Positions 3,356 to 61,791 of a stretch of 61,896 nucleotides of DNA are shown one piece after another. The stretch covers positions 1 through 61,896 of IMG/VR virus record IMGVR_UViG_3300030103_002748. One strand, written 5' to 3'. Made by a program: the position numbers and the translations under genes. This stretch comes from a virus. Numbering within the stretch: the first letter of the stretch is position 1; each line of letters starts with the position of its first letter. The notes beneath the pieces were generated by a model. That model was not told the origin of the DNA and did not search any database. It saw only the letters and a list, made by a program, of their open reading frames with translations.

Positions 3356-4810
3356 TTAACCTTTAAGTAAAAGTGTTGTTGCAGCCAAAGCCTTACCAGC
3401 GGTCACACTGGTAGAACCTGTTCCGAGACTGCCATCTGTTTGAACGTAATATGTAGTTCCGGGTGTTAAAGTCAAACCCAGACTTGCGTTAGTAATCACC
3501 CCGCCCTCGACCACCACTTCGCCTGATGCAGAGTTGTTGATAGCTTGGTTGGTGATGCCTACGAAGTCGGCGAAGTTGGTTGATCCGACCTGAAGAACCA
3601 CTGAAGTCCCGTAATTGCTATTACCACCGTCTTCAAAGCCAATTACTACTTTGTCTGAATTGGTGTCATAAGCAGCAGTGCATCTTTCTGACGTTGCTGC
3701 GGCAAACACAACAGGCGTTTCGTAAGTAATCGACGTACCACTCACAGTGCCAACGGCATAGGTTCCGTAATTGCTGTTGCCTTTATCCATATACACCACA
3801 ACCGCTTTCCCTGCGTCTGGGTCAAACGTCATTCCAACTTCTTGTATGCCGCCACTCTCAAATTCCACTTCAGAGCCATAGGATATAGACGTACCGCTGA
3901 CCGTCCCAACGAGTGACTTACCTTTTTCTGAATCAGCAGTATCTTCATACGCAATAACCACTTTGTTATTAGTGGTGTCAAATGCACACACTGAATTGGC
4001 AGTGCCAGCGGCATGAAATACAACAGCAGTTCCAAATGAAATAGAAGTGCCACTCACAGTGCCAACTATAGCTGTACCGTGACTTGAATTTCCTACATCA
4101 GTATATACCACTACTGTTTTATTGCTTGATGTGTCAAAGCAAGACGATTGTTGATATAAACTTGATTGAGCAGACTCAAAAACAACTGGAGACCCGTATG
4201 AAATAGAAGTGCCACTTACAGTGCCTACTGCGGCTGTACCATAGTTGCTATTGGATGTGTCTTTGTAAAACGTAACTACTTTATTTGAATTGCTGTCAAA
4301 TGTCGTGCTGGTATCTGATGCAACATTTGTGGTGATGGTCGCCTCAGAACCGAAACTAATACTGGTTCCGCTTACAGTGCCAACTATTGAGTTAGTTTTA
4401 TTGCTGTCTCCGACATCTTTATAAACAATGACTATTTTATTTGCATTGCTATCGTAAGTACCAGAGATTTGATACGTTGTGGCAGCATTAAATGTCACAG
4501 CCGTACCAAAGCTAATGCTTGTACCGCTCACAGTGCCTACGATAGCTTTACCGTGATTTGAATCTCCAGAATCAGTATAGACAATGACTACCTTGTTATT
4601 TGAGGAGTCATAAATAGGCAGAATGTGATAAGACTGTGCGGTTTCAAAAACTACTTCTGAACCTGTGCTTTCTGCTTGTCCAGAAATTTCAGACACCGTA
4701 CCGTTGGCATTCAGAACTACAGCCTGTCCTGTAGCCAGATTACCACTAGCCGTGGCCGTTATAACTTTTGCGCCAGCACCCGCTGGAAGTAGATCGCTTA
4801 GATTGCTCAT
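3356..4810 (-). CDS. DUF2190-like scaffold protein with one inserted seven-repeat propeller (array 1, position 2)
   Basis: 484 residues. Residues 1-43 and about 415-484 match the two halves of the ~120-residue scaffold seen alone at 6282-6647. Between them lie seven repeats of about 52 residues, each starting F/Y-D-x-x-x-x-K-V-V and containing VGTVSGTSISFG. Seven four-stranded units, with strands supplied from both ends of the block (EVVFE before it, SVVLQV at its end), fit a seven-bladed beta-propeller closed by a velcro strand arrangement. Expected to be a virion surface adhesin or decoration protein. No signal peptide. Confidence 0.75.
   Translation of the reverse strand: MSNLSDLLPAGAGAKVITATASGNLATGQAVVLNANGTVSEISGQAESTGSEVVFETAQSYHILPIYDSSNNKVVIVYTDSGDSNHGKAIVGTVSGTSISFGTAVTFNAATTYQISGTYDSNANKIVIVYKDVGDSNKTNSIVGTVSGTSISFGSEATITTNVASDTSTTFDSNSNKVVTFYKDTSNSNYGTAAVGTVSGTSISYGSPVVFESAQSSLYQQSSCFDTSSNKTVVVYTDVGNSSHGTAIVGTVSGTSISFGTAVVFHAAGTANSVCAFDTTNNKVVIAYEDTADSEKGKSLVGTVSGTSISYGSEVEFESGGIQEVGMTFDPDAGKAVVVYMDKGNSNYGTYAVGTVSGTSITYETPVVFAAATSERCTAAYDTNSDKVVIGFEDGGNSNYGTSVVLQVGSTNFADFVGITNQAINNSASGEVVVEGGVITNASLGLTLTPGTTYYVQTDGSLGTGSTSVTAGKALAATTLLLKG
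3560..4640 (-). repeat. Seven ~156-bp coding repeats (propeller 1)
   Basis: Each unit encodes about 52 residues with GTVSGTSISFG in the centre. Units differ by substitutions but keep the core string, so recombination between units or genes is possible. Confidence 0.85.
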
Positions 4811-6285
4811 GTGCTGTAATCCAAATTAATGCTTGTGGCTGACATTGCTTTGCCAGCTTCTACGCTAGGGCTTGCCGCGGATGTCGCTAATGTCCCGTCC
4901 CTTTGAACATAATAGGTTGATCCCGGAGTCAAACTGCTCAGACCGTTGGAGGCAATCCCGCCTTTCATCGTTACGTTTCCGCTTGCTGCGTTAGATATAG
5001 CTTCGTCCGCTATACCTAGGAAGTTAGTGGCAGTGAGGTTTGTACTATCGTAGGCAACTTGGAATACAACCGCTGTTCCATAGTAGGAGTTATCAACATC
5101 TCGGTAGGTAATAACCACTTTATTCAAATTAGAATCAAATGTTGACCCAATAAATTGAACGTGAGCAGACTCATACACAACTTCTGACCCAAACGAAATA
5201 CTGGTTCCTGATACAGTACCAACAATAAGAGTTCCATAAAGAGAGTTACCAGCATCTCTGTACGAAAAAACAACTTTATCTGCGGTGGAGTCAAATGTAG
5301 ATGAGATATAATTTGCACCAGCAGCTTGAATCTGCACAGAGCTACCGAACGATATAGAGGTTCCACTCACTGTTCCTACAACTGCGTATGAATAGCCATT
5401 CGCTGACTGATTATAACCAATAGCAACTTTGTTATTACTGGAATCAAATGTTGCTGTTATGTAAGTAGTAAGCGCATTAGTATCAAATGTTCCTGCTGAG
5501 CCGTAAGATATGCTCGTACCACTAACAGTGCCTACGATTGCTTTACCTTGGTTATCGCCAGAGTCTTTATAAGCAATAACAACTTTATTTGAGTTTGAAT
5601 CAAATGTTGCAGCCTGATCTGAAGTGTTTTCACTGTTGTATGCGGCTTTAGTCCCGAACGATATGCTTGTCCCGCTTACCGTCCCTACTATGGCAGTGCC
5701 ATAACCACCAGACGCACCGGACGCATCTCTAAAAACAACAACTACCTTATTGTTAGATGAATCAAATACGGTTGATATGTAGTCAGCACTTGACGCCCTA
5801 AACACCACTTCACTACCAAACGAGATTGATGTTCCACTAACTGTGCCTACTATTGCCGTGCCGTGAGATGAGTTCCCTCCATCTGTATAAGCAATCACAA
5901 CTTTGTTATTAGATGAGTCGAATGTCGCAGATGTATACGATGTAGAACCAGAATTAAAAACAACAGGCGTACCAAATGTTATTGAATTATCACTTGCTGG
6001 CGTTCCTACTACTGCGGTTCCGTAGCTTGAGTTGCTATTATCACAATACGCTATAACAACTTTGTTGTTAGACGAGTCAAATGTTGGTGAACTATATGGA
6101 GCACTTCCAGACTCAAATACTGTTGGTGAACCAATACCTTGATCGGCAGATTCTCCTGCCACCTGTGTAACCGTACCATTAGCGTTCAAGATGACAGGTT
6201 TACCCTGTGCAATTGTTCCACTCGCAGTAAATTCAAGCTGCTTACTCGCCGCACCTGCTGGTAAAAGATCGCTTAGATTTGTCAT
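4807..6285 (-). CDS. DUF2190-like scaffold protein with one inserted seven-repeat propeller (array 1, position 3)
   Basis: 492 residues, with the same design as its neighbour: scaffold N-part (MTNLSDLLPAGAASKQL), seven ~52-residue repeats beginning FDSSNNKVVIAY, then scaffold C-part ending SINLDYST. The scaffold halves are closest to the propeller-free protein at 61429-61791, which occupies the matching position in the second array. The two genes therefore differ mainly by presence or absence of the propeller block. Start overlaps the stop of the upstream gene (ATGA). Likely displayed on the virion surface; the ligand is unknown. Confidence 0.75.
   Translation of the reverse strand: MTNLSDLLPAGAASKQLEFTASGTIAQGKPVILNANGTVTQVAGESADQGIGSPTVFESGSAPYSSPTFDSSNNKVVIAYCDNSNSSYGTAVVGTPASDNSITFGTPVVFNSGSTSYTSATFDSSNNKVVIAYTDGGNSSHGTAIVGTVSGTSISFGSEVVFRASSADYISTVFDSSNNKVVVVFRDASGASGGYGTAIVGTVSGTSISFGTKAAYNSENTSDQAATFDSNSNKVVIAYKDSGDNQGKAIVGTVSGTSISYGSAGTFDTNALTTYITATFDSSNNKVAIGYNQSANGYSYAVVGTVSGTSISFGSSVQIQAAGANYISSTFDSTADKVVFSYRDAGNSLYGTLIVGTVSGTSISFGSEVVYESAHVQFIGSTFDSNLNKVVITYRDVDNSYYGTAVVFQVAYDSTNLTATNFLGIADEAISNAASGNVTMKGGIASNGLSSLTPGSTYYVQRDGTLATSAASPSVEAGKAMSATSINLDYST
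5040..6120 (-). repeat. Seven ~156-bp coding repeats (propeller 2)
   Basis: Same unit as propeller 1; starts FDSSNNKVVIAY in several units. Confidence 0.85.
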
Positions 6286-6647
6286 GCGAAATCCATCATG
6301 TTGATTGTTGTGGCAGTGACAGCCTGTCCTATCTTCACCGCTGGGCTTGTGCTGGTAGTAGAGACACTGCCATCGCTTTGGGCGTAGTAGTCAGAGCCAA
6401 TAGTCAACGAGGACTGCTTGCTGTTGATGCTGCCCTTGACGTTGATCTTGCCTGTTGCAGTATCTGATATAGCCGCATCTGCTAAACCTATAAACCTAGC
6501 TAAATTACCGTTGGCAGAAGTTATTTTTTTAACCTTGCCGTTAGTTTCTAAACTGACAGGATCACCAGCAGAAATCGCTCCATCTGCCGTGAAACTAACA
6601 ATGTTCTGCCCACCACCGCTGGGCAGCAGATCAGAAAGATTACTCAT
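6282..6647 (-). CDS. Propeller-free DUF2190-like scaffold protein (array 1, position 4)
   Basis: 121 residues. The pattern is that of DUF2190/capsid-cement-like proteins: FTADGAISAGDPVSLETNGKV, then FIGLADAAISDTATGKINVKG, then DYYAQSDGSV and a final strand ending INMMDFA. It gives the minimal scaffold into which the propellers of the neighbouring genes are inserted, at about residues 43-48 and 75-80. A closely similar copy is cut by the right edge of the window. Family assignment comes from sequence pattern only. Confidence 0.65.
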   Translation of the reverse strand: MSNLSDLLPSGGGQNIVSFTADGAISAGDPVSLETNGKVKKITSANGNLARFIGLADAAISDTATGKINVKGSINSKQSSLTIGSDYYAQSDGSVSTTSTSPAVKIGQAVTATTINMMDFA

Positions 6648-7781
6648 TTACACGCTCCAGCCTATAGTGCCGTTGATGTACACCAACGTAATCTCAGCGA
6701 AGTTCTTGTCGAACGTAAGATCACTTGCGCTTGACGCTATGTTGCTTGAGTTGCGACCTACGGTAAAACTTGTAGTTTCTGCTGCACCCGTACCGTCTTT
6801 AATAGTGACGTAATCACCTGCACTGGGACTAGCGGGTAGCGTAATAGTAATCGACCCCGCACTCGCTACAATAAATTCACCGACAGTAGCAGTATAGTTA
6901 CCGCTTTTCAGTTGTGGCGCAGAATACTCAGTAACTGTAGCGAAAGCTAGTTTGCCGGAACCATTAGATGCTTTTACAAACTGACCTGTACTACCTACAG
7001 CATCAGGTAGTTCTAAAGAATAGGTCGCTCCTGCGGAGTGTGGTGGGCCTTTTAGCGTTACACCGTGACTGTTGCTTTCACAGTTGAAGCGAATAGCACC
7101 TGCGTTGGTGTTACCGTAAAGCTCGGTAAAACCTGTGCCGTTTGGAAAGAGCTGTATGTTGCCATTAGTATTTGTAGATTTGACCGCATTTGCGTCTATC
7201 TGAATATTATCTACATCAAGCTCATTAGCGACTATCTGACCTGCGGAGCCATATATAACAGCCTTTGAATTAACTACGGTATCAGCAGCCGATCCATCTA
7301 CTAGGTTTAGTTCTGATGCACTAGATGTGACATCTGTAAGCTGAGTAACAGCGACTTGAGGACTCGCTAGAACCACCGCTGCGCCAGAACCTGCCCCGTC
7401 TAAATACAATAAGGCTGTTTTACCGTTGGCTATAGTGACGTTTGCACCAGAGCCCTGACTAACATTTATTGATTGACTGCCCGAAGTGGCATTTTCAATA
7501 AACATCACGCGAGAAACGGTGTTGGGCGCTATTGTTAACGTCCTGGTTGCCGTTAAGCTAACACCCGAGGTTACTTTAAAATAAAGTGCCCTGGCCGGAT
7601 CGGCAGCGCCATCCGCGACTGTCGTCGTGACATCGGCATCTGAACTAAAAGACGCCTCTGTTTTAAAGCCAAGGGCCTCACCTATAAGCTCTAAATTGGT
7701 ATTTGTGCTGGTTCCCCAGGTTCCGCTTTCGTCACCTGTGGCGATTTCTTTTAATCGTAAGTTGTTTACATAAGTTGCCAT
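6648..7781 (-). CDS. Tail fibre-like structural protein
   Basis: 377 residues. The N-terminus YVNNLRLKEIATGDESGTWG is typical of marine phage fibre or baseplate-attached proteins. The middle carries SSASELNLVDGS, a motif common in phage fibre shafts, and the C-terminal part is beta-rich (SITITLPASPSAGDYVTIKD). Low in cysteine and rich in Ser, Thr, Gly and Asn. Located just upstream of the propeller array, so it may form the attachment base of the receptor-binding apparatus. Virion location is inferred. Confidence 0.65.
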   Translation of the reverse strand: MATYVNNLRLKEIATGDESGTWGTSTNTNLELIGEALGFKTEASFSSDADVTTTVADGAADPARALYFKVTSGVSLTATRTLTIAPNTVSRVMFIENATSGSQSINVSQGSGANVTIANGKTALLYLDGAGSGAAVVLASPQVAVTQLTDVTSSASELNLVDGSAADTVVNSKAVIYGSAGQIVANELDVDNIQIDANAVKSTNTNGNIQLFPNGTGFTELYGNTNAGAIRFNCESNSHGVTLKGPPHSAGATYSLELPDAVGSTGQFVKASNGSGKLAFATVTEYSAPQLKSGNYTATVGEFIVASAGSITITLPASPSAGDYVTIKDGTGAAETTSFTVGRNSSNIASSASDLTFDKNFAEITLVYINGTIGWSV

Positions 7782-27738: not shown

Positions 27739-27767
27739 ATTATATGCGACTGCTATGTGCATGTCAA
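27739..27767 (-). promoter_or_regulatory. Consensus sigma70 early promoter
   Basis: Minus strand TTGACA (27762-27767), N17, TATAAT (27739-27744), a perfect match. The spacer begins TGCACATAG, the CACATA element shared by several promoters in this region. Confidence 0.8.
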
Positions 27768-28287: not shown

Positions 28288-28318
28288 ATTATACGCACAT
28301 TAGTTGCATATATGTCAA
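28288..28318 (-). promoter_or_regulatory. Sigma70-type early promoter
   Basis: Minus strand TTGACA (28313-28318), spacer of 19, TATAAT (28288-28293). Perfect hexamers with a long spacer. The leader carries AAAACGGGAGT before the ATG, shared with neighbouring leaders. Confidence 0.65.
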
Positions 28319-29018: not shown

Positions 29019-29047
29019 AATATATGTGGTATTTATGTGCATGTCAA
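29019..29047 (-). promoter_or_regulatory. Sigma70-type early promoter overlapping a stop codon
   Basis: Minus strand TTGACA (29042-29047), N17, TATATT (29019-29024). The spacer begins TGCACATAA. The TGA stop of the gene at 29044-29763 lies within the -35 hexamer. Confidence 0.78.
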
Positions 29048-29796: not shown

Positions 29797-29825
29797 AATG
29801 TATGCGCCTTTTATGTGGGCGTCAA
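29797..29825 (-). promoter_or_regulatory. Sigma70-type early promoter overlapping a stop codon
   Basis: Minus strand TTGACG (29820-29825), N17, TACATT (29797-29802). The spacer contains CCCACATAA, in which TAA is the stop codon of the preceding gene (29811). Confidence 0.75.
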
Positions 29826-30510: not shown

Positions 30511-30539
30511 AATGTATAGAATCTTTATGTGTACGTCAA
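30511..30539 (-). promoter_or_regulatory. Sigma70-type early promoter overlapping a stop codon
   Basis: Minus strand TTGACG (30534-30539), N17, TACATT (30511-30516). The spacer begins TACACATAA. The TGA stop of the gene at 30536-30841 is inside the -35 hexamer. Confidence 0.75.
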
Positions 30540-31111: not shown

Positions 31112-31140
31112 ATTATATGGGGCTATCTAGTGGGTGTCAA
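31112..31140 (-). promoter_or_regulatory. Consensus sigma70 early promoter overlapping a stop codon
   Basis: Minus strand TTGACA (31135-31140), N17, TATAAT (31112-31117). The spacer CCCACTAG contains the TAG stop of the nuclease gene ending at 31127. Confidence 0.82.
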
Positions 31141-32859: not shown

Positions 32860-32888
32860 ATGGTATCATACTTTATGTGTACTGTCAA
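32860..32888 (-). promoter_or_regulatory. Sigma70-type early promoter
   Basis: Minus strand TTGACA (32883-32888), N17, TACCAT (32860-32865). The spacer begins GTACACATAA, the same element as in the other early promoters. The leader contains a 6-bp hairpin at 32831-32850. Confidence 0.7.
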
Positions 32889-34288: not shown

Positions 34289-34518
34289 GAGTCTGGATGC
34301 CTCCTGAGTTCCCAAGCGTAATCGGTCAGCTTGTTGAGAAGGTCTTCTGCTGAGAAGACGTTTTCTTTCAGTATTTCGGCAATGATACGTCGATCTTGTG
34401 CCATGAGCCGGTCGCAATGGTCGTCGTAGGCTCGGTCCTCGTCGATTTCATAGCGTGGGGTAGATTTGCCGTAGTCTTCATCTTCTACGCGCATGGGGTT
34501 ATCAGATATGTCCTTCAT
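34285..34518 (-). CDS. Small acidic protein, unknown
   Basis: 77 residues (MKDISDNPMRVEDEDYGKST start), acidic, with many Asp and Arg. The ATG at 34518 is chosen because GGAGG lies 9 bases upstream; an ATG at 34551 has no such site. It overlaps the preceding gene by 17 bases. Function unknown. Confidence 0.55.
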   Translation of the reverse strand: MKDISDNPMRVEDEDYGKSTPRYEIDEDRAYDDHCDRLMAQDRRIIAEILKENVFSAEDLLNKLTDYAWELRRHPDS

Positions 34519-34729
34519 TACTGGGGTCCTCCAAGGTTTGTTTGCATTCATTAAGTACAGATTGAGCGGTGTCCAGGGCTCTAGAAAGGGTGTGCGGGGT
34601 TTTCTTGAGGTCTGCTACATGCTCCAAGGTTTCTAAATCGTCCCGCAAGTCCACGACGTATTCCTGAGCCATGCGCTGAACCATCTTCAGTTGTTCGGTT
34701 GTGAGTATTAAGTTGTGGTTGTGTGCCAT
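34502..34729 (-). CDS. Small helical protein, first gene left of the control region
   Basis: 75 residues (MAHNHNLILTTEQLKMVQRM start), helical, coiled-coil-like (VVDLRDDLETLEHVADLKKT). AGGAGG lies 4 bases before the ATG at 34729. First gene of a leftward operon whose promoter overlaps repeated operator-like half-sites. Function unknown. Confidence 0.65.
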   Translation of the reverse strand: MAHNHNLILTTEQLKMVQRMAQEYVVDLRDDLETLEHVADLKKTPHTLSRALDTAQSVLNECKQTLEDPSNEGHI

Positions 34730-34738
34730 ATGCCCTCC

Positions 34739-34819
34739 TGTGTAAAGATACACATAATATTCATATAAGAGTGCATAGTCAAATTGTTTTACACAAAAAA
34801 ATCTGGTATACTTTGTGTA
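34739..34819. promoter_or_regulatory. Divergent promoter pair with TGTGTA/TACACA half-sites
   Basis: Leftward promoter: TTGACT (34777-34782), N17, TATTAT (34754-34759). Rightward promoter: TTGTTT (34784-34789), N17, TATACT (34807-34812). Their -35 boxes are one base apart, back to back. A perfect dyad TGTGTA-AAGA-TACACA (34739-34754) adjoins the leftward -10. TACACAAA (34790) and TTTGTGTA (34812) flank the rightward -10. Four half-sites in 81 bases make this a likely control switch. Confidence 0.75.
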
Positions 34820-34838
34820 TAAAGTTTGGAGACCAGTA

Positions 34839-34994
34839 ATGGCTGAAAAGAAATACGATTTTGACAAGGTCCAGGCGGTACGCCATGCTCGTAACGAAGA
34901 GAAGCGTAGTATCAAGTGGATAGCAAACGCCTATGAAGTACCCGTTGATACGGTTAGGGATTGGATATACCGAGACCGTCGTGTCCGAAGTTAA
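34839..34994 (+). CDS. 51-residue HTH regulator candidate
   Basis: MAEKKYDFDKVQAVRHARNE, then EKRSIKWIANAYEVPVDTVR and DWIYRDRRVRS. Residues 23-47 fit a homeodomain-like helix-turn-helix (SIKWIANAY, EVP, VDTVRDWIYR). GGAG lies upstream of the ATG. It is directly expressed from the rightward promoter of the divergent pair, so it is the obvious candidate to bind the TGTGTA/TACACA sites and regulate itself. One of very few plus-strand genes here. Confidence 0.7.
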   Translation: MAEKKYDFDKVQAVRHARNEEKRSIKWIANAYEVPVDTVRDWIYRDRRVRS

Positions 34995-35181
34995 AACCTT
35001 CGAATGTTCCCGTTGTGAGACTGATTTCAATATTGAAATTGAATATCACAGAAAAGGAGCGGAGGCAGAAATAGTGTCGCTGCTTTGTCCGGCTTGTTTT
35101 ACTCAGATTCTTGAGCAGAACCCCGCTTTACAGACATATTTTGCAGTAGACCTGCCAATGTCCTTCGAAGTTCTTCATTGA
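34981..35181 (+). CDS. Small zinc-ribbon protein coupled to the HTH gene
   Basis: 66 residues from a GTG at 34981. FECSRCETDFNIEIEYHRKG and LLCPACFTQILEQ give two CxxC pairs, a classical zinc ribbon. It overlaps the end of the HTH gene by 14 bases. Its 3' end is antisense to the minus-strand gene at 35099-35287 for 83 bases. A regulatory partner is plausible. Confidence 0.6.
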   Translation: MSEVKTFECSRCETDFNIEIEYHRKGAEAEIVSLLCPACFTQILEQNPALQTYFAVDLPMSFEVLH

Positions 35182-35287
35182 TCTGTTTTAGGTCCTCAAC
35201 GGCGTCTGTCAGGTCATCTATTTTAGCGAGCTTTGATTCCAGCTCCTGCATTTCTTCCAGGGACTCAAACTCAACCGAAAACCTCAT
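35099..35287 (-). CDS. Small coiled-coil protein
   Basis: 62 residues: MRFSVEFESLEEMQELESKL, AKIDDLTDAVEDLKQINEEL and a basic end. A beta-strand followed by a heptad-like helix. It overlaps the ribbon-helix-helix-like gene by 4 bases and is convergent with the zinc-ribbon gene. Function unknown. Confidence 0.6.
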   Translation of the reverse strand: MRFSVEFESLEEMQELESKLAKIDDLTDAVEDLKQINEELRRTLAGLLQNMSVKRGSAQESE

Positions 35288-35514
35288 GCCCTGAACTCGG
35301 GCCGTGGGCGACCTTCGTCGATCCGCTTCTGCTCGACCTGGTCACTCAGGAATTCGCGGTCTTTCTGGCTCAGGTTCTCTGCAACCCAGGACTCGAAAAT
35401 TATTCGGAGCTGCCCGGACAATGTGCGTCCCTCCACTTTCGAGACAACAAATAGTTGATCATAGACCTCACGTGGCAATAGCACGGATTTCCATTTGGTT
35501 GTGTCCAATTTCAC
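35284..35514 (-). CDS. Ribbon-helix-helix-like protein
   Basis: 76 residues. KWKSVLLPREVYDQLFVVSK followed by VEGRTLSGQLRIIFESWVAE matches the Arc/CopG ribbon-helix-helix pattern: a strand, then two helices, with GRTLSGQ at the turn. A DNA-binding regulator is likely. Last genes of the replication operon; AGGAG is upstream of the start. Confidence 0.65.
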   Translation of the reverse strand: MKLDTTKWKSVLLPREVYDQLFVVSKVEGRTLSGQLRIIFESWVAENLSQKDREFLSDQVEQKRIDEGRPRPEFRA

Positions 35515-42056: not shown

Positions 42057-42083
42057 ATGTCATCCTCGTGGTTAAAGTGTCGT

Positions 42084-42131
42084 TTGAACACTTGAGCCAC
42101 ACATGATAATCATATAAACTCGTATATGCAA
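42084..42131. promoter_or_regulatory. Divergent promoter region of replication operon and SNF2 helicase
   Basis: Leftward: TTGCAT (42126-42131), N17, TATCAT (42103-42108), a good sigma70 match. Rightward: TTGAAC (42084-42089), N15, GATAAT (42105-42110), weaker. The two -10s overlap. Dyads ATGAT-A-ATCAT (42103-42113) and CATATA-N6-TATATG (42111-42128) could be operators. Confidence 0.5.
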
Positions 42132-58840: not shown

Positions 58841-61432
58841 TTACCCTTTCAGTAGAAGTGTCGTGTTTGCTATTGCCTTGCCAGCCGTTACGCTGGAAGA
58901 CGTTGTGGAAAGTGTGCCATCGTCTTGGACGTAGTAGGTGCTGCCGATTGTGAAGTTAGGCACACCGCTGGATAACGTGCCTACGATGCCTGTGCCATAG
59001 TTTGAATTACCATTATCTTTGAACGCTATGACAATTTTATTGTTGTCAGTATCTTTAGTTATAGCAATCTCTCCGCCACTGGTAGAGGTAGAGTTAAAGA
59101 CAGCAGCATCACCAAACGTAATGGTGTCGCCATCAACCGTCCCTATCTTGGTTTTTCCTTTATTTGAATCATCGGTGTCGCTGTAACCTATGATAATTTT
59201 ATTTGTAGTGGAGTCATAAAACGCTGGTGTACCGTGAAAACCCACATTGGTGCTATTCCAAGTTACCTCTGTTCCAACGCTTATTGATGTGCCGCTGACT
59301 GTACCTATGATTGCTTTCCCAATGTTGGAGTTATCCGCATCGCTAAAAAATATTACCGATTTGTTTGCATTAGCGTCATAAGCCACAGCAGTTCTAAAGG
59401 CATTTGCTGCAACTCCCGTGGTGAATGATCCAACACTCATGCTTGTGCCTGATATTGTTACAACACAAGCGTCCCCACGATTACTGTTGGAATTATTTGC
59501 AAAGAACACAACGTGCTTTTGAGCGGTAGAATCGTAGGCGATTGCTATATATATTGCCGTATCGCTAGAAAGTGCAGATGCTCCACCAAAGCTGATACTT
59601 GTTCCTGACACTGTACCCACATTAGCAGTAAGTACATCAGAATTACCTCCATCGCTGTAAACAAACAAGGTCTTTGATGCGTTAGTATCGTATGATGCCT
59701 CAAGATACGCAGATGAAGCAGACTCTAACACTACCTCTGTACCGAAAGAGATACTTGTTCCTGACACAGTTCCCACTCTGGCCGTGCCGTATGAACTGTT
59801 CCCTACATCTCTGTATCCAATGACTACTTTCCCCGCAGAAGCATCAAAAACTGCGGTCACATAGTCTGTGCTGGCACTATTAAATTCTACAGGACTACCA
59901 TAACTAATCGACGTACCAGACACAGTGCCTACGATAGCTTTCCCTTTGTTTGAGTCACCGTAATCTGCGTACGCTATTACAATCTTGTCGTTTGCTGTGT
60001 CGTAAACAATTGCCGGATATCTCGAATTACCCGTATTATAAACCGCCTCACTTCCGTAACTCGCTGTCGTTATTGGTGACAACAACGACCCGTTAGTAAT
60101 CACCCCGCCCTCGACAACCACTTCGCCTGATGCAGAGTTGTTGATAGCTTGGTTGGTTATGCCTACGAAGTCAGAAGAGTTTGTGGATGCGCCAGCTAAC
60201 TGAAGCACATATGCTTTGCCTCGATTATTTGTAGAATCACTTAGAGCAATAACTGTTCTTCCTGCATTGGTGTCAAAAGCAGAACCGCCAAAATTATTGT
60301 TGTAGTTCGTAATTGCTACAGGAGTTGCATAGGATATGCTGTTACCCGCAGTAGGTGTCCCTACCACATAATAGCCATAGTCACTATTATTTTGATCTCG
60401 ATATTGAATTACAACTTTGTTTGCTACGGAGTCAAAAACTATTGAGTGAACGTCTACAATATTACTAGAAAATACGACACCAGTACCAAAAGATATGCTG
60501 GTTCCAGACACTTCACCTACAACTGCTACACCCCGTCTACTATTGTCGTAATCCTGATAAGCGACAACTATTTTGTTAAGATTGCTGTCAAATGTTGCTA
60601 CAATGTCTTCAGCGGTATCGCTTGCAGGAGAGAAAGCCTCACCTGACCCAAAGCTGATGCTTGAGCCGGACACTGTTCCGACTTTTGCCCGCCCTCTTGT
60701 GTTGTTATCATTATAAACTACGACAAATTTATCGTTCGTAGTATCGTAAAAAACAGCCATTGGGTCTGAAACAGAATTACTTTCAAAAACCTCTTCTGGA
60801 TTGGTTCTAGTGACCGAAGTGCCACTAACCGTTAGAAGTCTTGCTGCGCCTCTGTTGCTGTTCCCGCCATCTGCATAAATTATCATATGCTTGGCAGCAT
60901 CAGGACTGTAGGCAACATTAACGTACAATGATTGATTGCCCTCGACCTCTAAGGCAGAGCCGAAAGAAATACTGGTTCCTGACACAGTACCAACGATTGC
61001 TTTTGCTGGGCCGTTACCCTCATCATAAGACTGATAAGCGATTAATACCTTGTCCTCACCTGTATCATAGGAAGCGTCTACATGATTAGTGCCTGAACTC
61101 TGAAAAACCACCGCTGTGCCAAACGAGATTGAGTTACCTGATACCGTACCAACGCGAGCGGTTCCATAATTACTATTACCGTTATCCCTATATGCAACTA
61201 TTACTTTGTTGCTGTCAGGATCAAAAACAACCGCCGGGTACTCAGTTTGATTTGATGCTCCATATGTAACAGCACTGCCGATGTTTTCGGAATGTGCAAC
61301 CTCAGCGACCGCTTTAACAGTACCGTCACTCTGCAAGATCACGGTTTGTCCTGTAGCCAGATTACCACTGGCCGTGGCCGTTATGACTTTTGCGCCGCCA
61401 CCTGCTGGCAGTAAATCGCTTAGATTGCTCAT
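58841..61432 (-). CDS. DUF2190-like scaffold protein with two inserted seven-repeat propellers (array 2, position 2)
   Basis: 863 residues. Scaffold N-part (MSNLSDLLPAGGGAKVITAT), seven ~52-residue repeats, scaffold middle (FVGITNQAINNSASGEVVVE), a second set of seven repeats, then scaffold end (FTIGSTYYVQDDGTLSTTSS). Each set alone fits a seven-bladed propeller. The second block enters at about scaffold residue 75-80, a site not used in array 1. The scaffold ends are nearly those of the array 1 gene at 3356-4810. Confidence 0.75.
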   Translation of the reverse strand: MSNLSDLLPAGGGAKVITATASGNLATGQTVILQSDGTVKAVAEVAHSENIGSAVTYGASNQTEYPAVVFDPDSNKVIVAYRDNGNSNYGTARVGTVSGNSISFGTAVVFQSSGTNHVDASYDTGEDKVLIAYQSYDEGNGPAKAIVGTVSGTSISFGSALEVEGNQSLYVNVAYSPDAAKHMIIYADGGNSNRGAARLLTVSGTSVTRTNPEEVFESNSVSDPMAVFYDTTNDKFVVVYNDNNTRGRAKVGTVSGSSISFGSGEAFSPASDTAEDIVATFDSNLNKIVVAYQDYDNSRRGVAVVGEVSGTSISFGTGVVFSSNIVDVHSIVFDSVANKVVIQYRDQNNSDYGYYVVGTPTAGNSISYATPVAITNYNNNFGGSAFDTNAGRTVIALSDSTNNRGKAYVLQLAGASTNSSDFVGITNQAINNSASGEVVVEGGVITNGSLLSPITTASYGSEAVYNTGNSRYPAIVYDTANDKIVIAYADYGDSNKGKAIVGTVSGTSISYGSPVEFNSASTDYVTAVFDASAGKVVIGYRDVGNSSYGTARVGTVSGTSISFGTEVVLESASSAYLEASYDTNASKTLFVYSDGGNSDVLTANVGTVSGTSISFGGASALSSDTAIYIAIAYDSTAQKHVVFFANNSNSNRGDACVVTISGTSMSVGSFTTGVAANAFRTAVAYDANANKSVIFFSDADNSNIGKAIIGTVSGTSISVGTEVTWNSTNVGFHGTPAFYDSTTNKIIIGYSDTDDSNKGKTKIGTVDGDTITFGDAAVFNSTSTSGGEIAITKDTDNNKIVIAFKDNGNSNYGTGIVGTLSSGVPNFTIGSTYYVQDDGTLSTTSSSVTAGKAIANTTLLLKG
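58960..60060 (-). repeat. Seven ~156-bp coding repeats (propeller 4)
   Basis: Second block of the 863-residue protein, at the distinct downstream scaffold site. Confidence 0.85.
60190..61280 (-). repeat. Seven ~156-bp coding repeats (propeller 3)
   Basis: First block of the 863-residue protein, inserted after the scaffold N-part at the same site as propellers 1 and 2. Confidence 0.85.
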
Positions 61433-61791
61433 GTGCTGTAATCCAGATTGATGCTTGTGGCTGACATTGCTTTACCAGCGGTCACTGAAGAAGATGCGGT
61501 GCTAAGTGTGCCGTCATCTTGGACGTAGTAGGTCGCTCCTGGCGTTAGACTGCTCAGACCATTAGCTGCAATCCCGCCCTTCATAGTAACCTTGCCGCTT
61601 GCTGCGTTGGATATGGCTGCGTCTGCTATGCCTAAAAACCTACTGACGTTAGAGTTCGCTGAGGTTATTTTTTTAACTTTTCCATTGGTTTCTAAACTTA
61701 CCGTGTCGCCTTGCGCTATCGCCCCATCAGCAGTAAAACTTAGCTGCTTACTGGCCGCACCCGCTGGTAAAAGATCGCTTAGATTTGTCAT
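61429..61791 (-). CDS. Propeller-free DUF2190-like scaffold protein (array 2, position 3)
   Basis: 120 residues, MTNLSDLLPAGAASKQLSFT to SINLDYST. The ends match the propeller-bearing gene at 4807-6285; the middle (LETNGKVKKITSANSNVSRF) matches the propeller-free gene at 6282-6647. It looks like the position 3 gene without its propeller, or a hybrid of the two. Overlaps the next genes by ATGA. Confidence 0.65.
   Translation of the reverse strand: MTNLSDLLPAGAASKQLSFTADGAIAQGDTVSLETNGKVKKITSANSNVSRFLGIADAAISNAASGKVTMKGGIAANGLSSLTPGATYYVQDDGTLSTASSSVTAGKAMSATSINLDYST

Follow-up and report, generated by a model that had tools for sequence, protein, structure and literature searches.

The question raised by this locus is whether two back-to-back promoters, a set of short repeated words and a 51-residue HTH gene form a local genetic switch or one part of a wider control system of the phage. 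The locus lies in the virus record IMGVR_UViG_3300030103_002748, whose 61,896 bases, with leftward genes in the majority, were analysed as a whole (hereafter the window). Four TGTGTA/TACACA half-sites within 81 bases had been reported in the earlier note on this DNA, and all of them are present. Half-site 1 (TGTGTA, 34739-34744, +) and half-site 2 (TACACA on the + strand, 34749-34754, -), which lies at the -10 box of the leftward promoter PL, form the dyad TGTGTA-AAGA-TACACA. Half-site 3 (TACACA on the + strand, 34790-34795, -) lies in the spacer of the rightward promoter PR directly after its -35 box, and half-site 4 (TGTGTA, 34814-34819, +) stands immediately 3' of the PR -10 box, so that the second pair flanks this box as the note had described. 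The -35 boxes of the two promoters are one base apart, 34783 being the base between. PL (34754-34782, -) consists of TTGACT (34782-34777), a spacer of 17 nt and TATTAT (34759-34754); PR (34784-34812, +) consists of TTGTTT (34784-34789), 17 nt and TATACT (34807-34812). The description of both as good promoters was right for PL, which scored 10/12 in the promoter scan and keeps its boxes in close relatives, with changes confined to the spacer. It was too generous for PR, which was not among the promoter-scan listings and whose weak -35 box matches at three of six positions by eye, although its -10 box has TGG directly 5' and near relatives carry TATAAT.

The HTH gene occupies 34839-34994 (+), with a ribosome site GGAG at 34828-34831, and is recognised by its homologues, an AlphaFold2 model and a weak HTH_28 match. 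It overlaps by 14 bases a zinc-ribbon-like ORF of 66 residues with a GTG start in the same operon (34981-35181, +); this ORF gave weak zinc-ribbon matches only, and its homologues adjoin the HTH gene in many loci. The first gene from PL encodes 75 aa (34502-34729, -) and its domain search was empty. A ribbon-helix-helix (RHH) protein of 76 aa (35284-35514, -; RHH_5 at E 1e-3, below the cut-off) is encoded convergently with the HTH operon. Gene calls in the window were made with a rough script that missed some genes. Elsewhere in the record, paralogous tail-type genes that start with MSNLSDLLPAG or MTNLSDLLPAG lie near both ends (3356-7781 and 58841-61791).

Among 300 sequences simulated with a first-order Markov model, each as long as the window, none contained such a cluster of four half-sites, and TGTGTA/TACACA is not enriched in the whole window (23 occurrences against 29.9 expected). 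Other six-base words cluster likewise, with 12 listed places in the window where some word has four copies in 81 bases or fewer, so the half-site cluster by itself is just moderately unusual. The case must therefore rest on conservation in relatives, which is the stronger evidence.

Distinct homologues of the HTH protein were found in viral contigs in 37 cases, including one fragment, and 36 of them were aligned with the window protein at 41-98% identity. Their distribution across viral contigs shows that the 51-residue ORF is a real gene, as had been proposed. Nine contigs encode the protein at 92-98% identity. When the upstream alignment was shifted to allow for a 106-aa gene that separates promoter and HTH gene in seven of these nine, the core TACACATAATAT ... 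CATAGTCAAATTGTTTTACACAAAAAA ... TATA proved near-constant in all ten sequences (the window and its nine relatives). The expectation that the half-sites would be conserved was borne out for the inner sites 2 and 3, which are unchanged in 9/9 relatives, but not for the left arm of the dyad, half-site 1, which is exact in 1/9. Half-site 4 is exact in one relative, reads TGTGCA in L007 and is absent in the seven with the inserted gene. A perfect dyad as the main operator was considered as a general rule and rejected, since just one of the nine close relatives keeps it. In L007, the divergent gene beside the promoter is replaced by another gene. The two-way promoter is thus real and conserved, and we read the region as promoter and putative operator for a small gene that encodes a probable early regulator.

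More distant loci were collected with a polymerase scan (the best 80 loci) and an HTH profile scan (the best 80 of 112 confirmed), and the homologues from these loci reach down to 41% identity. In nearly all of them the RHH gene follows downstream in convergent orientation, as a rule together with that of the polymerase. Their 81 upstream regions were grouped at a 72% threshold into 24 clusters, which are not fully independent because some (e.g. L154, L157 and L160) share near-identical promoter cores. The top 5-mer in these clusters was CACAT/ATGTG (37 occurrences against 11.0 expected, in 21/24 clusters) and the top 6-mer was TACACA/TGTGTA itself (19 against 3.6, in 13/24). Back-to-back -35 boxes (TCAA.{0,3}TTG) occur in 15/24 clusters against 2.4 expected, TTG.{4,6}CACA in 16/24 against 1.2, and TTG.{4,6}CACA.{16,20}TGTG in 11/24 against 0.02, while the full left-to-right arrangement is found in 8/24 against 0 expected. 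A TGTG at the place of half-site 4 recurs in distant clusters, and the right-hand CACA is missing from eight of the 24. These counts uphold the claim that operator-like words recur in a divergent, conserved control region 5' of a tiny HTH gene. In L174-L176, TACGCA ... TTTACG replaces TACACA ... TGTG at the rightward promoter, and these loci encode HTH proteins with R23-K24 where others have R23-S24; judged from the sequences, it is possible that the site changed alongside the protein.

The same element also stands in other early promoters of the phage. On the leftward strand, it was found as TTGACATGCACATAGCAGTCGCATATAAT in a 12/12 promoter (27739-27767), as TTGACATGCACATAAATACCACATATATT in an 11/12 promoter (29019-29047), as TTGACGCCCACATAAAAGGCGCATACATT (29797-29825), as TTGACGTACACATAAAGATTCTATACATT (30511-30539) and as TTGACAGTACACATAAAGTATGATACCAT followed by GTG, one base longer than the pattern (32860-32888); an inverted form, TTGACATATATGCAACTAATGTGCGTATAAT, lies in the promoter at 28288-28318 (-). 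The rightward helicase promoter (42092-42120, +) carries TTGAGCCACACATGATAATCATATAAACT, which also sits 3' of the -10 box of the leftward replication-operon promoter. The pattern TTGNNNNNCACATN{8,14}TANNNT gave six matches at five places in the window (27767, 29047, 29825 and 30539 on the - strand, 42092 on the + strand), against none for the reversed-pattern control. The element sits at nearly fixed distances from the -35 and -10 boxes; in the promoters at 28318 (-) and 27467 (-), ATGTG lies closer to the -10 box. Strong sigma-70 matches are included among the element-bearing promoters (12/12, 12/12 and 11/12).

With the limits of the early region (27.0-42.3 kb) fixed after the first matches were known, promoters scoring at least 10/12 contained CACAT, ACACA, ATGTG or TGTGT in 6/8 cases in the early region and in 2/9 elsewhere, and for promoters scoring at least 9/12 the figures were 11/19 and 5/34 (Fisher p 0.002). 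When orthologous promoters were aligned across close relatives, changes were seen in 1/115 base comparisons within the element and in 64/276 at the other spacer bases, a comparison that covers seven promoters with rows related by descent. The strict TTGNNNNNCACA word (9 against 11.4 expected) and CACA-N17-20-TGTG (4 against 4.8) show no excess over chance in the whole window. Since the raw word counts are at the level of chance, the signal lies in promoter context and conservation. From these sequences, the element appears to belong to a system that controls early genes throughout the genome. The promoter at 31112-31140 (-) is a perfect 12/12 sigma-70 promoter with CCACTAGATAG in its spacer where others have CACAT, and it is kept in 3/4 aligned close relatives. 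It is a second early promoter type and, being perfect without the element, it indicates that the element is dispensable for promoter function.

Beside the helicase promoter, another feature was observed in the leader of the leftward replication operon. A short hairpin lies directly 5' of the ribosome site and is followed by TAA(C/T)CACGA, both in the window (42060-42090) and in L186-L222. Its stem letters vary (AAGTGT, AAGGGC, AAGAGC, AAGTTC, AGCCC), and a per-sequence stem search found the pairing kept in nearly all of 25 sequences; RNAalifold predicted no pairs on the unadjusted helicase-leader alignment. The leader hairpin is possibly a translational control site.

We propose that the 51-residue HTH protein would bind the CACA(T)/(A)TGTG elements, repress its own promoter first and, as infection goes on, shut down or tune the early promoters scattered over the genome. 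The block would arise by occupation of the spacer between the -35 and -10 boxes, which would keep host RNA polymerase off. Repression fits better than activation because several promoters with the element are strong consensus matches, and no other promoter has sites as elaborate as those of the HTH gene itself, as expected of autoregulation. That a small autoregulated HTH protein acts on sigma-70 early promoters across the phage, probably as a repressor, is a reading to which we assign roughly even probability, and in it we infer both the repression and the identity of the binder.

A local switch of the lambda type does not account for these observations, since the same element occurs in many other early promoters. 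The Cro/CI immunity region of lambda combines divergent promoters, several short operators and a tiny HTH product. The earlier note had compared the present locus to this layout, and the likeness holds for the divergent promoters, the adjoining operators and the tiny HTH product, but not for the second repressor. The divergent product (34502-34729, -) gave no DNA-binding match and hence no opposing repressor, and searches of the record found neither an HTH_3 domain nor a tyrosine integrase (controls 14/14 in both; the integrase search covered the tyrosine type, and the record may be a fragment). Unlike in lambda, the operators are spread over the early region. A lysogeny switch was therefore rejected. 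The nearest named phage is DSL-LC04, whose polymerase matched 17% of a 2.5-kb query at 65% identity; in its published description it was predicted to be virulent by BACPHLIP (PMC10611076). A scan of 30 of its 61.5 kb gave neither a notable HTH or RHH match nor a promoter with the element. The phage studied here is apparently lytic.

Other parallels come from lytic and archaeal systems. Gp5.7 of the lytic phage T7 is a DNA-binding protein of about 7 kDa that represses early promoters read by the host polymerase on the phage genome and contacts DNA at -40 to -27 (PMC5569994). The HTH protein is of similar size, and the element studied here sits close to the position of this contact. Gp5.7 folds as a winged HTH, and the present AlphaFold2 model shows three helices but lacks strands; repression has been shown for Gp5.7, whereas we infer it here. 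By analogy, the HTH protein may be a damper of early genes of the Cro type or the T7 Gp5.7 type instead of half of a two-repressor lysogeny switch, with chances for and against about equal. In a study of archaeal viruses, one consensus sequence was described in front of numerous early genes across a group of viruses, and regulators akin to Aca are proposed (PMC11065993). One sequence before many early genes is likewise found here, although the promoters there are archaeal and those here are of the bacterial sigma-70 type with a spacer element.

The link between the HTH gene and the element was also examined in 50 viral records (of 52 first picked by length). Records found via the HTH gene were included, and because the choice was partly made through this gene, the 29 carriers among the 50 do not give a prevalence. 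The strict promoter pattern was found in 20/29 carriers, and so was missing from nine of them, against 0/21 non-carriers; a looser TTGAC version was found in 13/30 carriers (window included) and again in 0/21 non-carriers. Promoters of the form TTGACN{14,20}TATANT, chosen blind to CACAT, numbered 30 distinct ones in HTH-carrying phages, of which 14 had CACAT in the spacer (1.2 expected), against 0/7 distinct ones from non-carriers. On a polymerase tree of 47 rows (the window plus 46 records, as four of the 50 had no polymerase in the locus), the carriers form one clade, with one state change and one independent pair. The correlation between gene and element therefore amounts to a single independent contrast and is not strong proof, and the profile of 20/29 against 0/21 was set aside as decisive evidence.

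The non-carriers have an element of their own. A CGCAT version occurs at the same place of the spacer in 7/21 non-carriers and 5/30 carriers. In the last 110 bases of 38 helicase promoter orthologues, CACA/TGTG was present in 18/23 carriers and 5/15 non-carriers, and CGCAT/ATGCG in 3/23 carriers against 9/15 non-carriers; in some carriers this promoter has CGCAT, CCCAT, CTCAT or GGGAT-like letters. The CGCAT versions in phages without the HTH gene suggest that part of the element may predate this gene and serve another factor, and on these sequences it is quite possible that a CRCATA element came earlier and had a reader of its own. Dyad sites are usual for HTH dimers, and the elements here are often single or in tandem direct order, without a dyad.

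The most serious rival for the role of binder is the neighbouring RHH protein (35284-35514, -), for which the element would be an operator bound by dimers on helically phased CRCATA repeats; the HTH gene would then be merely one RHH target with some other role. The RHH gene is present in 49/50 records, including all 21 non-carriers, and the WKS strand of its product is very conserved. Pairs of CAT-CAT spaced 10-11 bp apart were found 11 times in 37 distinct promoters (about 0.5 expected), in both groups of phages, and one-turn direct repeats of this kind are a layout of RHH operators. Nevertheless, the non-carriers keep nearly the same RHH strand and have no CACAT-type promoter in 21 records, and the strictest CACA and TGTG sites are those at the HTH gene's own promoter. 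We regard the assignment of the element to the RHH protein, and the lesser role that it leaves to the HTH gene, as each rather unlikely, though of real weight. A joint arrangement is doubtful: the HTH protein (about 51 residues, sigma-region-4-like) and the neighbouring RHH protein might together read phased CRCATA repeats in most early-promoter spacers, the HTH arm having been added once with the shift from CGCAT to CACAT, in an undescribed system of an uncultured lytic clade.

The HTH protein itself could be an activator or sigma-like, a free-standing look-alike of sigma region 4 that recruits RNA polymerase via the element directly after the -35 box, and this we consider improbable. Its AlphaFold2 model (mean pLDDT 80.5) has helices at 8-19, 25-32 and 36-50. 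All aligned sequences share R23, W27, P35, D37, T38, R40, D41, W42, R45 and R48, and the recognition helix P-D-T-RDW is almost invariant. Sigma-factor models gave a weak match to one model in 33/37 family members, Sigma70_r4_2 matches 6/11, and the Foldseek listing includes many structures of ECF sigma region 4. However, the window protein scored 20.7 bits against a sigma-model cut-off of 265 that is set for a whole sigma protein, and several promoters with the element are already near-consensus in both boxes. The match to Pfam HTH_28 (PF13518; E 2.3e-4, 21.6 bits) is likewise below its curated cut-off of 25, as are the other weak matches (DUF1804, phage terminase small subunits, sigma region 4), with none at or above cut-off among the matches seen. 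No specific structural family could be assigned, since Foldseek gave no match at E 0.001 or better and the VIA-align matches, with Z of 7.1 at best, were scattered over unrelated tri-helical HTH proteins. As modelled, the protein has a common tri-helical HTH fold, and no family stands out as its nearest. With two different members as queries, nothing credible was found among 50,697 named phage records (only E 5 or worse), one scan of prokaryote genome contigs gave 24 pattern matches and no confirmed relative, and a literature search of limited scope found nothing on the family.

The inserted genes raise a further reading, namely that the HTH protein is an Aca-like repressor of a small, possibly anti-defence operon and that the likeness to other promoters is secondary. 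Aca repressors are small HTH proteins of early operons with conserved inverted repeats in strong core promoters and inferred autorepression (PMC9410906), and an inverted repeat inside its own core promoter is also found for the HTH gene in the 11 clusters given above. The 106-aa gene (e.g. L004 4662-4979, and six other contigs) has no assigned family, and L119 and L166 have other ORFs of about 100 aa at the same place; all are candidate accessory or anti-defence genes. However, no informative family matched these ORFs, and none of the genes adjoining the HTH gene was recognised as a known anti-CRISPR gene. In addition, the 106-aa gene was found in seven contigs, the same ones that have it beside the HTH gene, and the element is phage-wide and extends beyond the HTH operon. 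We find this reading quite unlikely. That the phage contributes no regulator at all, and the element is a mere feature of promoters for the host polymerase or for a host regulator, is very unlikely, as the nearly fixed distances to the -35 and -10 boxes would fit it but the perfect, conserved promoter at 31140 (-) lacks the element and the CACAT form is missing from relatives without the HTH gene.

If the reading of the HTH protein as a small autoregulated controller of the early promoters is true, the transcription programme of an uncultured phage group would become testable. Its parts, a single protein of 51 residues, a short DNA word and about ten promoters, would be small enough for reconstruction in laboratory E. 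coli. Early genes in these contigs could also be marked by means of the element.
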